From an uncultured SAR86 cluster bacterium (lineage in GTDB: Bacteria > Pseudomonadota > Gammaproteobacteria > Magnimaribacterales > AG-339-G14), in NCBI GenBank assembly GCA_902578495.1, contig CACHCY010000008.1:1-36111 (forward strand): a DNA stretch of 36,111 bases, in the 5' to 3' direction. Shown here piece by piece: positions 5,585 to 30,243 of the stretch (position 1 is the first letter of the stretch; each line of letters begins with the position of its first letter). The translations under genes and the position numbers were made by a program. The notes under the pieces were generated by a model, which was not told where the DNA came from, ran no database searches, and worked only from the letters and a program-made list of their open reading frames with translations.

Positions 5585-6228
5585 AAAAGTATTTAATTAT
5601 CTTCTTTTTTATTTTTGGTTATTCCTGTTCTTACAAAAACAATCTAGATATTGATTCATCTCATTACAAATATTCGTGGTGCAATTTAAATGATGAAATG
5701 GATACTTTGGATTTATTTAACTTTATAAAGGATTTCGAACTAATTTTTAATCAAAGAAAAAATAAGCAAAAAATTACCATAAATTATCTTAAGCCTGAGT
5801 TTGATGTTGGAAGTTATGATTTTTTAATTGAAACAACTATTGAGGCCAATGACAAAACTGACATTGATTTCAATTTACATGATCTTTTTATTTTTGAAGG
5901 ATCTAATACTTTTGATTGTTTTGATTATCTTGAATATGGTTCTGAGAAAGAAAGAGACCAAAGTAAATTAACCAATCCTTTTTTTACATATTTTATTTTC
6001 TGTAAAAATACTTCAATACCTTCAACAAGAACTGACATAAGTTTACTTAAACCTAAAATTACTTCCGATGAGTATGACTTTCTGCTTAAAACAGAATTAA
6101 AAGAAAATCATTCTTATGATTTTTTCGATGAAAAATTTGAGCTAAATTCAATCTGTAATTTATTTGAACTGGATAATTTTAAAGAATATTATTCATATGA
6201 AACATTTAATCTTTTTAATAATTGGTAA
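5581..6228 (+). CDS. Putative lipoprotein with an internal duplication
   Basis: A 215-residue protein that I do not recognise with confidence. Residues 1-15 are a short hydrophobic signal ending in G-Y-S-C16, an imperfect lipobox, so it is probably a lipoprotein. The mature part seems to be two related halves. Each has a Cys in an aromatic context (YSWC34N and YFIFC141K), then LKP (70-72 and 156-158), then YDFL (79-82 and 165-168) and an acidic/Asn-rich tail. It is rich in Asp, Asn, Phe and Tyr. It recalls small 'WCN'-type secreted proteins seen in marine gammaproteobacteria, but only by memory. It overlaps nadC by ATGA and lies 4 nt ahead of the serine hydrolase, so it is an operon member with no evident link to NAD synthesis. 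Confidence 0.75.
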   Translation: MKKYLIIFFFIFGYSCSYKNNLDIDSSHYKYSWCNLNDEMDTLDLFNFIKDFELIFNQRKNKQKITINYLKPEFDVGSYDFLIETTIEANDKTDIDFNLHDLFIFEGSNTFDCFDYLEYGSEKERDQSKLTNPFFTYFIFCKNTSIPSTRTDISLLKPKITSDEYDFLLKTELKENHSYDFFDEKFELNSICNLFELDNFKEYYSYETFNLFNNW

Positions 6229-22545: not shown

Positions 22546-24464
22546 TCTTCTAAAATCACTAAAGTTGAGCCGCTCTCAACCTGATCTCCAACAGCAATCA
22601 ATACTTCTTTGACGTTTCCATCACTTGGAGCAGTTACCTTATGCTCCATTTTCATAGCTTCTAGAATAACTAAAGTTTGGCCAGACTTAACAGACTCATT
22701 TTTTTTGACAGGTACATCTACAACTTTTCCAGGCATAGGAGCAGTTAAGCCACCGGCTATTTCGTTTATCGAGCTGGACTCAAACCTTTCTTTCATCTCA
22801 AACAATAAGTCTCCCTTAATGGTTTGAATAAGAAACTTACCTTCATGGTATGTAATTTTTGAAATGATCCTTTTTCCATCAATTTCAATATCTATTGATT
22901 CATCATCAAATTCATAAATTCTTACTGAGGCATCATCTGAAAGACAAAATTCTCCACCTCTTGTTGACTTATATTTGACCTCAATAACATCATCACCAAA
23001 AATTAAATCTACTTTTTGATATGGAAGCCTTGCGTTATGCCAACCAGATTGAATGTTAGAAAGAACACTAGCACTTTCTCTGTTTTTAGCTTGATTCCAC
23101 ATGGCTACCGCAACAGCATGATCAAAAATTTCATTTTCTGATAAATCAATTTCTGTGTTGAGATTTACTCTCTCAACGAAGTCGGTTGTTGTTTTTCCTT
23201 TGAGAAAGTCTTCAGACCTCAAGATTGAAATTAGATAATCTCGGTTTGTCCTCATGCCACCAAAATGACTTCTTTCAAGAGCCAAAGCTAGTTTTTGAGC
23301 AGCTTCCTCTCTAGTTTCAGCATAGGAAATTACCTTTCCAAGCATTGGATCAAAATTTGAGGACACGACAGTTCCTTTTTCAATCCCTACATCCCAGCGC
23401 ACAGAAGGGTTATCGCATGGATCGAAGGCAATTATATCTCCAGTAACTGGGAGAAATTCATTTGCAGGATCTTCAGCATAAAGCCTTACTTCGATTGATG
23501 AACCTATCAACTCAACGTCATCTTGAACAAACTCTAATTCATTGCCTTGAGCAATCTTTATTTGTTCTTTCACAAGATCTAGGCCAGTTACCTCTTCTGT
23601 TACCGGATGTTCTACTTGGAGTCTAGTGTTTACTTCTAAAAAAAAGAATTCTTTGGTTTTATCATCAAATAAAAATTCAACCGTTCCAGCAGATTCATAT
23701 TTAAGTGCAGAAGCAAGCTGAACGGCTGCAGACCCAATTTTGTCTCTGAGCCCTTGATCAATAACTGTAGAAGGAGATTCTTCAACTATTTTTTGATGCC
23801 TTCTTTGAATTGAGCACTCTCTTTCTCCTAAGTGAACAACGTTCCCAAAAGAATCACCTAAAATTTGAATCTCTATGTGACGAGATTTTTTAACATATCT
23901 TTCTAAAAAAACTCTTTTATCACCAAAACCGCTTTCGGCTTCACGTTCTGCCGCTGATATGTTTTCTTTTAATTTTTTGGGATCTTCAACAACTCTCATC
24001 CCTTTACCACCTCCTCCAGCAGAAGCCTTAACAAGAATTGGATATCCAATTTTTTTTGCATCTTTGGCATCAGAGGTCATAGGAAGAGTCGGAACACCAG
24101 CCTTTTCAGCAAGTTTCTTAGAGGTAATTTTATCTCCCATTTTTTTAATGACATTGCCACTTGGTCCTATCCAAATAATCCCTGCTTTTTTGACAGAATT
24201 TGCAAACCCAGCATTTTCAGATAAAAAGCCATATCCTGGATGAATTGCATGAGAACCTGAATTTTTTGCAATAGAAATTATTTCTTTTGCATCCAAATAA
24301 CTGCCTTCCAATTTAAAAGCTTCATCAGCCTCCTTAACATAAGGAGAATTAGCATCATCTTCTGTATAAATAGCAACACAAGAGATTCCCATATCTTGAG
24401 CACTACTGATTACTCTGCTTGCAATTTCTCCTCTATTTGCAATTAGTAATTTTTTAATGATCAT
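22542..24464 (-). CDS. Biotin-dependent acyl-CoA carboxylase alpha subunit (biotin carboxylase + BCCP)
   Basis: A 640-residue fusion of biotin carboxylase, BT linker and biotin carrier domains. Motifs: IANRGEIASRVI start, the ATP-grasp KASAGGGGKGMRVV, the active site ERECSIQRRHQKIVEESPS, FLEVNTRLQVEHPVTE, and the carrier EAMK605MEHK with the biotinyl-lysine 35 residues from the end. It carboxylates biotin with ATP and bicarbonate and passes CO2 to the partner beta subunit, whose stop overlaps its start by ATGA. The architecture equals MCC/GCC/PCC alpha subunits. The AtuA-family gene next door makes geranyl-CoA (AtuF-like) or methylcrotonyl-CoA (LiuD-like) the best substrate guesses; sequence alone does not decide. 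Confidence 0.93.
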   Translation of the reverse strand: MIIKKLLIANRGEIASRVISSAQDMGISCVAIYTEDDANSPYVKEADEAFKLEGSYLDAKEIISIAKNSGSHAIHPGYGFLSENAGFANSVKKAGIIWIGPSGNVIKKMGDKITSKKLAEKAGVPTLPMTSDAKDAKKIGYPILVKASAGGGGKGMRVVEDPKKLKENISAAEREAESGFGDKRVFLERYVKKSRHIEIQILGDSFGNVVHLGERECSIQRRHQKIVEESPSTVIDQGLRDKIGSAAVQLASALKYESAGTVEFLFDDKTKEFFFLEVNTRLQVEHPVTEEVTGLDLVKEQIKIAQGNELEFVQDDVELIGSSIEVRLYAEDPANEFLPVTGDIIAFDPCDNPSVRWDVGIEKGTVVSSNFDPMLGKVISYAETREEAAQKLALALERSHFGGMRTNRDYLISILRSEDFLKGKTTTDFVERVNLNTEIDLSENEIFDHAVAVAMWNQAKNRESASVLSNIQSGWHNARLPYQKVDLIFGDDVIEVKYKSTRGGEFCLSDDASVRIYEFDDESIDIEIDGKRIISKITYHEGKFLIQTIKGDLLFEMKERFESSSINEIAGGLTAPMPGKVVDVPVKKNESVKSGQTLVILEAMKMEHKVTAPSDGNVKEVLIAVGDQVESGSTLVILED

Positions 24465-27728: not shown

Positions 27729-28532
27729 ATGAAAATTGAAGATATTTTTTCGGTGAAAGACAAAGTAGCTCTTGTCACAGGTGGATCAAGAGGAGTTGGG
27801 GAAATGATTGCTTCAGCTTATTTGGCAAACGGAGCGAAAGTTTACATCACCGCCAGAAAAGCAGAAGCTTGTAACGACAAAGCCAATGAACTTAGTGAGA
27901 GATATAACGCAGAATGCATTTCAATTCCTAACAATGCCTCAACGCTTGATGGGATAGAAGAGCTGTATAACGAAATTTCTCACAAAGAATCTAAGCTTGA
28001 TATTTTAGTGAACAATGCTGGTGCAGCATGGGGAGAGCCAATTGAAGAATTCTCAGAATTAGGTTGGGATAAGGTAATGGACTTAAACGTCAAAAGTATG
28101 TTTTTTGTTACACAGAAATTTTTACCATTGTTAAAGGAAGAATCTACCAAAGAAAATCCAGCCAGAGTGATTAATATCGGTTCGATTGATGGTATTAACA
28201 CACCGGCTTTTGAAAACTATGTTTACAGTGCATCTAAAGCGGCAGTTCATCACTTGACTAGACATCTATCCTCAAGATTGGTGCAAGATAATATTTTAGT
28301 AAACGCAATAGCTCCTGGCCCATTTCCAAGCAACATGTTGGGGTCTGCAGTGGCTCATAACTATGATCCTTTAGTCGAAAGAAACCCTATGAAAAGAATA
28401 GGCACTGCTGAGGATGTTGGAGGTCTTGCAATCTTTTTATCTTCACGTGCTGGAAATTTCACTGTTGGTGAGACCATTATTTGCGATGGAGGTTTAACTG
28501 CTTCATCAGGTCACGACCTTACATCTGAATGA
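27729..28532 (+). CDS. Short-chain dehydrogenase/reductase (SDR)
   Basis: A 267-residue classical SDR. It has the NAD(P) motif TGGSRGVG (17-24), NNAG (95-98), catalytic S152, Y166 and K170 (in YSASK) and the PGPFPS loop. The Arg in TGGSRG and R43 after the second strand (YITARK) suggest NADPH preference. The body resembles FabG/RhlG-type 3-ketoacyl reductases. The substrate is unknown; being a few genes from the AtuA/carboxylase block, it could play an AtuG-like role, though a tRNA and an unrelated gene separate them. An AGG about 10 nt upstream of the ATG is a weak ribosome site. A terminator begins right after the stop codon. Confidence 0.9.
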   Translation: MKIEDIFSVKDKVALVTGGSRGVGEMIASAYLANGAKVYITARKAEACNDKANELSERYNAECISIPNNASTLDGIEELYNEISHKESKLDILVNNAGAAWGEPIEEFSELGWDKVMDLNVKSMFFVTQKFLPLLKEESTKENPARVINIGSIDGINTPAFENYVYSASKAAVHHLTRHLSSRLVQDNILVNAIAPGPFPSNMLGSAVAHNYDPLVERNPMKRIGTAEDVGGLAIFLSSRAGNFTVGETIICDGGLTASSGHDLTSE

Positions 28533-28761
28533 AAAAAACCCCGCATATTGCGGGGTTTTTCAAGAGAAAGTATCTCAACTAATCTCTTACTAGAGGCGGG
28601 ACGTACCGGCCTCTAGCCGGAATACGGGTCAACCCGTTGTCAAGAGGCACCCCCTGATATTCCTGCTAAATCGTTAATATTAATTTTGGACCACCTCCTG
28701 TACAGGGTAAATTTGTTGAAAGCAGTTCTAGAGAATCCCTGATATTTTTTCACTAGCTGCG
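28531..28761 (-). ncRNA. Putative structured small RNA with a 16S 3'-end complement
   Basis: An apparent stand-alone RNA of about 230 nt. A promoter ends at 28768 and the terminator lies at 28560-28534. Between them hairpins are packed closely, in transcript order: GCAGCTAG (28760-28753) with CTAG-AA-CTGC (28731-28722); CAGGAGG (28700-28694) with CCTCTTG (28647-28641), extendable by two wobble pairs; ACGGG-TTGA-CCCGT (28637-28624); CTAGAGGC with GCCTCTAG (28616-28590); AAGAGA with TCTCTT (28588-28562). The 5' base of the first stem coincides with the predicted start of transcription. AGGAGGTGGTCC (28699-28688) can pair with the end of 16S rRNA. It does not match tmRNA, RNase P, SRP or 6S signatures I know; a CsrB/Rsm-like sponge (three GGA motifs) is one alternative. 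Confidence 0.65.
28534..28560. terminator. Bidirectional intrinsic terminator
   Basis: A 12-bp stem (28534-28545 with 28549-28560) of A-tract plus CCCCGCA, a TAT loop and the complementary TGCGGGG plus T-tract. It ends the SDR transcript on the plus strand (T5) and the ncRNA on the minus strand (T7). It is the only strong intrinsic terminator I can see in the window. Confidence 0.9.
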
Positions 28762-28767
28762 ACACCT

Positions 28768-28796
28768 AATATAATTTTAATACTTGATTGTGTTGA
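28768..28796 (-). promoter_or_regulatory. Promoter of the putative small RNA
   Basis: On the minus strand, TCAACA (28796-28791), a 17-bp spacer and TATATT (28773-28768) predict initiation at about 28761, exactly at the base of the first predicted hairpin. It lies just outside the 3' end of the DASS transporter gene (28810). Confidence 0.6.
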
Positions 28797-28809
28797 GAAC
28801 AATTAAATA

Positions 28810-30243
28810 CTACACAAATAACTGAAAAGAATTTGGAAATAAATAATTTAAAGCTAGTAGGAGCAAGCCACAGATTATATTTAAGAAAATACCCGCTCTA
28901 ACCATGCGGTTTATAGGAATATAGCCCGATGCGTAAACAATAGAATTTGGAGGAGTTGCTACCGGAAGCATGAATGCACAACTAGCCGCGATCGTAAGAG
29001 GAACTATGAGCAGCATGGGATTGACTCCAATGTTTATACCAATCCCTGCAATGATGGGAATAAATGTAATGGTTGTTGTTAAATTACTGGTCAATTCTGT
29101 TAATACGATGACCATTGCGATTACAATGAACAAGACCAAAATTAGGCTGGCTTCGTTTGGTACTAAGTTAGCAAGCCAAATAGCTAAGCCACTATCATTG
29201 ACCACATAAGCAAGAGTCATTCCGCCACCAAATAAAAAAATTAAACCCCAAGGAAATTTATTTTGGATATCTTCCCAGTCCAGTAATCGTTTTTGATTTG
29301 AAGTCAAAAAGAAAAGACTCAAACCACCCATCATCGATATAACAGCATCCTCTAGTAAAAATAGAAAAGGAATATCATCAATTATTTTTCGAAACACCCA
29401 TCCTAAAGCAGTAAATAAAAATACAAGAGAAACTATCTTTTCCTCTCGGCTCATAACACCTAATTCTTCCTTAATTTCAAAAAGAATTTTTTCAGCACTG
29501 CCGGTATCAGAAAAATTAATTGGAAATAAGAATTTTGTTAGAACCAACCAAATGATTGGCAAAGAAATAATTGAAAATGGCGCTGCAATTGAAAACCAAT
29601 CTACAAAACCTATATCTAAATTATAGTTTTCAAATGCATATTGAATTAAAACTCCGTTGGGTGCTGTTCCAATTGGTGTAGTTATTCCACCTAAAGATGA
29701 AGAATATGCAATTCCCAGAAGTAAGCAGACTTGAAAATTTAGCTTTTGATTCTCGGATAAATTTTTGATGGAATCATTGATTGCTTGAATGATAGAGATG
29801 CCGATTGGAAGAAGCATAATGGTTGTAGAGGTATTCATAATCCACATGCTTAAAATAAAACTCGCTATCATGAAGCCTGCAATTAATCTCTCACTTTTGA
29901 ATCCAGTAATAGATAAAACAATCAAAGCTATTCGCTTATGCAAATTCCATTTTTGCATGGCGATAGCAATCATGAATCCTCCAGCAAACAAAAATTGAAC
30001 TTTGTTCATATACTCTTTTGAAAGCACTCCAATTTCTTCAACACCCAAAAGAGGGAAGGCGATAATGGGGATAAGTGCTGTTGCAGGAAGGGGTAATGCT
30101 TCTGTAGCCCACCAAATACCCATCAGAATAAAAACAGCTGCAGTTATCTGACCTCTTTGAGATAAATCATCTGGATTAAAAAAGATTAATATTGCTGTAA
30201 ATAAAAGAATTCCTGACCAAAATCCTATTTTTTTTGAGTCCAT
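28810..30243 (-). CDS. DASS/SLC13 family sodium-coupled anion symporter
   Basis: A 477-residue inner-membrane symporter of the divalent anion:sodium family (dicarboxylates or sulfate). The two substrate/sodium hairpin signatures are present: WIMNTSTTIMLLP near 135-147 and TSNLTTTITFIP in the second half, together with GGITTPIGTAPNGV and the closing LPVATPPNSIVYASGYI. About eleven hydrophobic segments are seen. Members with this ATPPN motif carry dicarboxylates such as succinate or malate, but the anion cannot be fixed here. The gene begins 4 nt after the sirtuin stop, so the two form an operon read from the cobB promoter. Confidence 0.92.
   Translation of the reverse strand: MDSKKIGFWSGILLFTAILIFFNPDDLSQRGQITAAVFILMGIWWATEALPLPATALIPIIAFPLLGVEEIGVLSKEYMNKVQFLFAGGFMIAIAMQKWNLHKRIALIVLSITGFKSERLIAGFMIASFILSMWIMNTSTTIMLLPIGISIIQAINDSIKNLSENQKLNFQVCLLLGIAYSSSLGGITTPIGTAPNGVLIQYAFENYNLDIGFVDWFSIAAPFSIISLPIIWLVLTKFLFPINFSDTGSAEKILFEIKEELGVMSREEKIVSLVFLFTALGWVFRKIIDDIPFLFLLEDAVISMMGGLSLFFLTSNQKRLLDWEDIQNKFPWGLIFLFGGGMTLAYVVNDSGLAIWLANLVPNEASLILVLFIVIAMVIVLTELTSNLTTTITFIPIIAGIGINIGVNPMLLIVPLTIAASCAFMLPVATPPNSIVYASGYIPINRMVRAGIFLNIICGLLLLALNYLFPNSFQLFV

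Follow-up and report, generated by a model that had tools for sequence, protein, structure and literature searches.

The largest protein-free gap in the window, by which we mean the whole stretch of 36,111 nucleotides of SAR86 DNA analysed here, is a real stand-alone RNA gene of SAR86, and its product probably represents a micropeptide-coding regulatory RNA family that is absent from Rfam and from the searched literature. We are practically certain that the RNA family is real; it is recognised by its helices, by an extended Shine-Dalgarno (SD) sequence, by an open reading frame (ORF) of constant length and frame, and by the conserved position of a -10 element. It matches none of the specific RNA families tested in the features that define each of them.

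The gap itself (28533-28809, 277 bases) exceeds every other interval of the window without an ORF of at least 60 amino acids or a tRNA, the next two by size (before 26297 and before 27729) being tRNA-bearing, and it is flanked by an SDR gene on the plus strand (27729-28532) and by a transporter gene of the Na/sulfate-symporter type, according to Pfam, on the minus strand (28810-30243). The RNA gene lies at 28533..28766 on the minus strand, as delimited by a match of covariance model R1 (G000:C8:28558-28766) plus a terminator read from the sequence, with its 3' end in the U tract and its 5' end, 28766, placed from the conserved distance to the -10 element. Its G+C content is 0.45 against 0.34 for the window, and its folding energy of -80.2 kcal/mol (237 nt) compares with -61.2 (sd 4.7) for shuffled sequences (z -4.07), none of 200 shuffles being as low. 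Blastn found a single copy of the RNA in this 1.18-Mb genome, of which the window is contig C8. The original prediction, which had described the longest protein-free stretch, richer in G/C than its surroundings, as a stand-alone minus-strand structured RNA of about 230 nt with its own promoter and terminator, is upheld in all these respects by the gap survey, composition, folding, comparison and terminator.

The likely promoter, as predicted from the sequence, is TTGTTC-17-TAAAAT on the minus strand, with the -35 element at 28797..28802 (three of six matches to TTGACA) located 17 nt before the -10 element at 28774..28779. Of 75 homologous loci, 54 have a -10-like hexamer at this one fixed distance from the RNA 5' end, while the other offsets gave 0 to 12. 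The hexamers proposed at first, TCAACA-17-TATATT, were indeed found by a scan, yet shuffled sequences give about as many such promoters (2 found, mean 1.5), and the comparison points to another -10 element, the TAAAAT at 28779-28774. At the other end, the minus-strand unit is closed, as had been proposed, by an intrinsic terminator (28532..28561) whose stem CCCCGC/GCGGGG, with A and T runs on each side and a U tract, was read directly, having gone unreported in a simple scan for terminators. A hairpin followed by a U-rich tract at most 170 nt past the stop codon was present in all 76 aligned homologues under a lenient custom test with no shuffled control, and up to this terminator-like element, by the same lenient test, the 76 RNAs would be 144 to 238 nt long (median 205). 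The RNA would thus possess its own promoter and terminator, as dual-function small RNAs do, by sequence criteria. Since the terminator at 28532-28561 is symmetric, it could serve both strands; the stop codon of the convergent SDR gene overlaps its A run, and the same element may also end the SDR transcript.

Covariance models were used to follow the family through the SAR86 order. The R1 model, built from 24 sequences of families f1 and f2 only, found one copy each in 136 of the 203 order members sampled, many of which are incomplete, in 35 of 40 high-quality genomes and in 21 of 22 genera, and it also recovered families f3 and f4, although neither was in the model. SAR86 is among the most abundant bacterial groups of the surface ocean and its genomes are small, yet two thirds of those sampled retain this RNA as a single gene. 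The R2 model, built from 76 sequences, matched 137 of the 203 genomes, the extra one being G139 (E 0.0086); this match and a second one in G055 were weak, probably due to chance, and were dropped on score alone. The near-complete f4 genome G042 gave no R2 match. We prefer these model counts to the blastn count (63 of 151 genomes), which includes terminator-only and very short matches.

The compensatory changes among the homologues support a set of helices that includes two pseudoknots, and the conservation and covariation called for in the original prediction were found; its plain row of hairpins was incomplete, lacking both pseudoknots. All helices are on the minus strand. The 5' strand of P1 (GGUGUC, 28761..28766) pairs with the GACA at the stop codon of the ORF, its 3' strand (GACAA, 28637..28641) overlapping that codon, with a counterpart in the outgroup too. 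P2 (28722..28760) is a long hairpin (GCAGCUAG...CUAGAACUGC) with two-sided changes at all 11 modelled pairs in an alignment of 76 sequences fitted to P2, and at 9 of 11 in the unfitted alignment A2. P3 (28703..28741) is a pseudoknot in which CAGGG of the P2 loop (28741-28737) pairs with CCCUG (28707-28703) just upstream of the SD; C-G, A-U and G-C exchanges occur at one of its pairs, and a change from G-C to A-U at another in f4. P4 (28619..28663; GGAAU 28663-28659 with AUUCC 28623-28619) is 99% paired, shows two-sided changes at three of five pairs, and encloses P6 (28624-28637) and P5 (28641-28656), the latter weakly supported and with mostly one-sided changes. As P1 crosses P4, a second pseudoknot exists besides that of P2 and P3. 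Two further hairpins follow, P7 (CUAGAGGC/GCCUCUAG, 28590..28616), with two-sided changes at four of five modelled pairs, and P8 (28562..28588), with a loop containing GUUGAGAUAC and two-sided changes at seven of eight pairs in f1 and f2; among the sequences listed for f3 and f4, the P8 position is occupied by the terminator. A former pairing of the 5' GUGUC with GAUAC in the P8 loop was replaced by P1, whose partner GACA at the stop codon occurs in each of the four families.

The statistical evidence for these helices comes from three alignments. In A2 (24 sequences, MAFFT, unfitted), 88.9% of the cells were paired, against 76.8% in shuffles and 37-56% in slid versions of the structure, and two-sided changes, pseudoknots included, appeared in 164 cells versus 57 in shuffles; the structure was drawn from one A2 sequence and the P1 and P3 registers are those with the most paired cells, which favours it over the slid versions. 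In A3 (76 sequences, fitted to the nested helices of R1), two-sided changes were found in 683 cells versus 234 in shuffles; in contrast to the other measures, the number of pairs showing them did not rise above shuffles (31 versus 29.6, with 107 of 500 as high). P1 was assessed on the plain MAFFT alignment A4, composed of 25 SAR86 and 2 outgroup sequences and not fitted to the structure, where 87.4% of its cells were paired compared with 81.7% in shuffles and 18-47% in slid controls. Two-sided changes in P1 (U-A, C-G and A-U exchanges) amounted to 8 cells versus 3.1 in shuffles, none of 500 being as high, and were spread over 3 pairs versus 1.6 (37 of 500 shuffles as high), a count not decisive alone. 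Finally, an unsupervised ranking of pairs placed 17 of its top 18 in the modelled helices, with P1 and P3 not standing out; the alignment ranked was fitted to the helices, and entry to the ranking required at least 75% canonical pairing.

Downstream of P3 lies an extended SD, GGAGGUGGUC (28689..28698, minus strand), which is complementary to the 16S rRNA 3' end ...TGGATCACCTCCT; the 16S of this genome, identified by eye, ends in ...GGCTGGATCACCTCCTAAAA. The motif GGAGGUGRUC covers the anti-SD together with the bases before it, and at its single variable position both A and G can pair with U. GGAGGTG[AG]TC is kept in 76 of 76 aligned homologues, an apparent invariance favoured by the search models, which themselves contain the motif. 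A 14-codon ORF follows (28640..28684, minus strand), with the rare start codon AUU at 28684-28682, a UGA stop at 28642-28640, and the predicted peptide (I/M)NINDLAGISGGAS. Among the 76 homologues, the distance from GGAGG to the start codon is 7-9 nt, the start is AUU in 71 and AUC in 5 under a pattern restricted to these two codons, and 14 codons followed by UGA are found in 75, the exception (L165) having 13 codons in frame. Under patterns permitting AUG, no SAR86 copy showed an AUG start. A set of 100 distinct SAR86 cores (loci L001-L059 and L081-L171) gave AUU in 95, AUC in 5 and 14 codons in 99, codon 2 being required to be AGT, AAT or TTT, which excludes L114 (G500, AUG-UCU) from this set. 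The original prediction was right about a structured RNA and overlooked both the conserved extended SD and the AUU-started frame of fixed length; with these two elements, calling it a "noncoding structured RNA" is probably just half the description.

The frame behaves as one that is kept open. No sequence has an in-frame stop, where column frequencies predict 0.47 per sequence, and the other two frames sit at expectation (0.81 versus 0.82 in +1, 1.74 versus 1.66 in +2); only 14-codon sequences entered this comparison, L165 and L117 (which contains an N) being left out, neither with an early stop. At an effective number of 24 sequences, the depletion corresponds to a rough Poisson P of 1e-5, the expectation presuming independent columns. 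In 31 nearest pairs, there were 37 nonsynonymous and 18 synonymous changes, distributed as 27/23/27 over codon positions 1/2/3; these pairs gave no clear codon signature and no third-position excess, and the synonymous share (18/55) was only somewhat higher than in the other frames (12/48 and 9/58). Taken together, the stop depletion and the many nonsynonymous changes indicate that the frame stays open while the peptide varies over much of its length. In SAR86 copies, helices P4 and P5 overlap the conserved codons 8 and 11, and the stop codon overlaps P1 and P5, so the UGA and the fixed spacing could be partly structural. Overall, translation of the ORF is probable. As a separate observation, in many f3 RNAs (L126, L129, L137 and others) the SD shares bases with an AUG (AUGGAGGUG) that lies in a different frame from the AUU ORF and could act as a competing start.

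Two other readings have to be weighed against this evidence. The RNA could be a noncoding trans-acting small RNA that pairs with its targets through the GGAGGUG segment or the conserved P8 loop, the ORF being a structural by-product; its stand-alone gene with varying neighbours and the many nonsynonymous changes fit such a role, whereas the frame-specific stop depletion does not, nor do the SD-start spacing of 7-9 and the constant ORF length, which hold also in the outgroup, where P4 is not recognised, and we consider this reading rather unlikely. We give a similarly low probability to a 30S trap, in which the extended SD would dock free 30S subunits and a near-cognate P-site codon would hold them as a subunit buffer or store, with little or no peptide made. 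The SD complement is longer than usual in all 76 homologues, canonical starts never occur in the SAR86 copies, and pseudoknotted mRNAs that bind the 30S unproductively are described for the uS4/alpha operon and for uS15 (PMC10931766). Against it, a pure trap needs neither an open 14-codon frame nor the AUG found in the outgroup.

That outgroup emerged when R2 was run over 369 genomes of the class and yielded one convincing match outside SAR86, in G500 (E 7.4e-6; R1 had given 0.08). A third model, R3, detected three strong members in the gammaproteobacterial order of G500 (24 genomes), namely G954, G500 and G952, only the last of which is independent, given that R3 was trained on the other two; a match in G953 (E 0.049) was dropped for having no SD motif. 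All three members carry CAGGG upstream, CCCTG before the SD, and AGGAGGTGATC, and their P1 shows compensatory changes (GCGUC/GACGC and GGCGUU/AACGCC); the P4 helix could not be recognised by eye. In the three, an AUG located 7 nt after GGAGG starts a frame of 14 codons, ending in UGA, UAA and UGA in G954, G500 and G952, respectively. No other single argument speaks as strongly as this outgroup layout for AUU as the SAR86 start codon and for an old ORF. The predicted outgroup peptides, MSNRCIIGAPGGTC (G954), MSNDSMCAASGATC (G500) and MSHRCIIGFSGGAC (G952), have C-termini (GGTC, GGAC, GATC) resembling the GGNC of SAR86 f4. Among the weak R2 matches, four more in the class and three in 398 genomes of the phylum, five lacked GGAGGTG[AG]TC on the matched strand and were dropped, as were L174 (G374) and L179 (G765), which have the SD motif, no AGGG partner upstream, and frames of 26 and 1 codons. 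In L174 (G374:C1:160164-160282, minus strand, from a 1.0-Mb genome), AGGAGGTGGTC is followed by AUU-AGU 7 nt after GGAGG and by the 26-codon open frame; we take it as chance, the other option being a degenerate relative.

On balance, and with modest confidence, we favour a mini-mRNA or dual-function RNA in which the pseudoknot, the extended SD and the non-AUG start would gate the synthesis of a 14-residue peptide. The pseudoknotted 5' domain formed by P2 and P3 sits directly upstream of the 10-nt SD pairing with 16S, and the RNA 5' end folds back onto the stop codon through P1; the extended SD would capture the 30S strongly and force the start onto AUU or AUC. IF3 discriminates against AUU and AUC start codons, and from such a start the peptide may be made slowly and under regulation, each passing ribosome opening P1, P4 and P5. 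A low-rate, IF3-sensitive start is fairly probable. We infer translation from AUU at a rate that would be set by IF3 or by free 30S, and translation, or its absence, would either switch the RNA or make a functional peptide. That translating the ORF, and not the peptide itself, is the output is conceivable, and we rate it as somewhat doubtful. Still more tentative, and on present evidence unlikely, is a gene of a novel type, an RNA with two pseudoknots that senses initiation, which would always recruit ribosomes, would depend on IF3 and free 30S for its AUU start, and would use fixed-frame translation, not the peptide sequence, as the switch signal, SAR86 having derived this non-AUG sensor from an ancestral AUG version that the outgroup order would still retain.

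Several known systems share parts of this arrangement. SgrS and RNAIII are dual-function structured small RNAs that hold a short ORF; the SAR86 ORF differs in being shorter, of fixed length and non-AUG-started, with no Rfam match for its RNA. In the alpha-operon leader, the helices connect segments surrounding the start codon. This uS4-regulated E. coli (rpsM) leader resembles the SAR86 RNA in its pseudoknotted ribosome site able to hold the 30S unproductively (PMC10931766). In contrast, no ribosomal-protein gene comes after the SAR86 RNA, which ends in a terminator of its own, holds a 14-codon ORF and matches no Rfam family; it is flanked by transporter, SDR and other genes, not of the rpsM/rpsD type, and in gene context does not fit an alpha-operon leader. 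In S. aureus, AUU and AUA starts beside an extended SD are described as real start sites that yield about 10% of AUG in poor medium, a process that the authors describe as modulated by IF3 (PMC13009471). The genes infC and S. aureus cvfC1 and ccpN likewise have a conserved non-canonical start beside an extended SD (PMC13009471). These are ordinary protein genes, whereas the SAR86 ORF has 14 codons within a stand-alone structured RNA. To our knowledge, a stand-alone RNA that joins a start at AUU/AUC with a 10-nt SD complement and a frame fixed at 14 codons would be without precedent, and with it non-AUG initiation, IF3 and 30S supply become directly testable in vitro.

Leader and arrest peptides such as TnaC and SpeFL, in which translation of a short ORF remodels downstream structure, bring up the question of a downstream gene, and with it the reading of the RNA as a cis-acting leader, either attenuator or riboswitch. 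For f3 and f4, a related same-strand transporter-like gene does lie downstream in 51 of the 76 loci, about 100 nt or less from the matched end (its EamA label was read from the sequence, with no Pfam call), which would suit a leader. However, in all nine f1 loci, the window included, the RNA has the transporter upstream and a convergent SDR gene downstream, and in f2 (12 loci) the downstream gene is convergent in seven and, in the other five, same-strand and unrelated to the f3/f4 gene; moreover, the terminator-like element closes the RNA throughout. The TnaC/SpeFL type thus lacks its same-strand gene in 9/9 f1 and 7/12 f2 loci, and the f1 arrangement excludes a cis-acting leader as the general function, leaving this reading with a very low probability. 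In loci L115-L171 (f3/f4), the RNA is mostly placed between a small-protein gene, often of about 70-78 amino acids, and the same-strand transporter-like gene; the upstream small proteins comprise 38 related ones and 6 of a second group.

As to known RNAs and mobile elements, Rfam 15 at gathering score reported only two tRNAs in the whole window, leaving the RNA gene unmatched, in line with the original prediction, which had recognised no known RNA family, and between 28450 and 28900, with E up to 10, it gave 27 sub-threshold matches, all but one on the terminator. No description of the SAR86 RNA appeared in searches of the open-licence PMC literature, a comparison that does not extend to the psRNAs of a 2009 ocean study or to the marine "IMES" RNAs. 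The main text of the Pelagibacter structured-RNA paper does not contain the word "SAR86" (PMC2704228). A phage origin was rejected after blastn against phages matched neither the window RNA nor the G954 copy; two exact SAR86-core patterns had no occurrence in viral contigs, and a third hit one (L189), where the site resembles the start of an ordinary gene and has no R3 match. Plasmid sequences aligned to the outgroup query over about 40 nt in two cases, at 93-133 nt past the first base of its stop codon, which is outside the ORF and past the terminator; both were likewise discarded.

The similar size and the unannotated gap would agree with a diverged version of a universal RNA (6S, tmRNA, SRP or RNase P). 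Nevertheless, this genome has its own 6S RNA (RF00013) at G000:C11:14163-14333 and its own tmRNA (RF00023) at G000:C1:263917-264265, which refutes both, and neither SRP nor RNase P families are among the 27 Rfam matches mentioned above; this origin has a negligible probability. The 6S model matched in 30 of 31 genomes, 20 of them over the cut-off; in G010, G011, G013, G014, G016, G017, G042, G045, G048 and G051, the match fell below the gathering cut-off and still spanned the full model, and the Rfam 6S model seems to fit SAR86 poorly. In G017:C10, there are two equal-scoring 6S sites in opposite orientation (5876-6047 and 24185-24356), which represent either a duplication or an assembly error.
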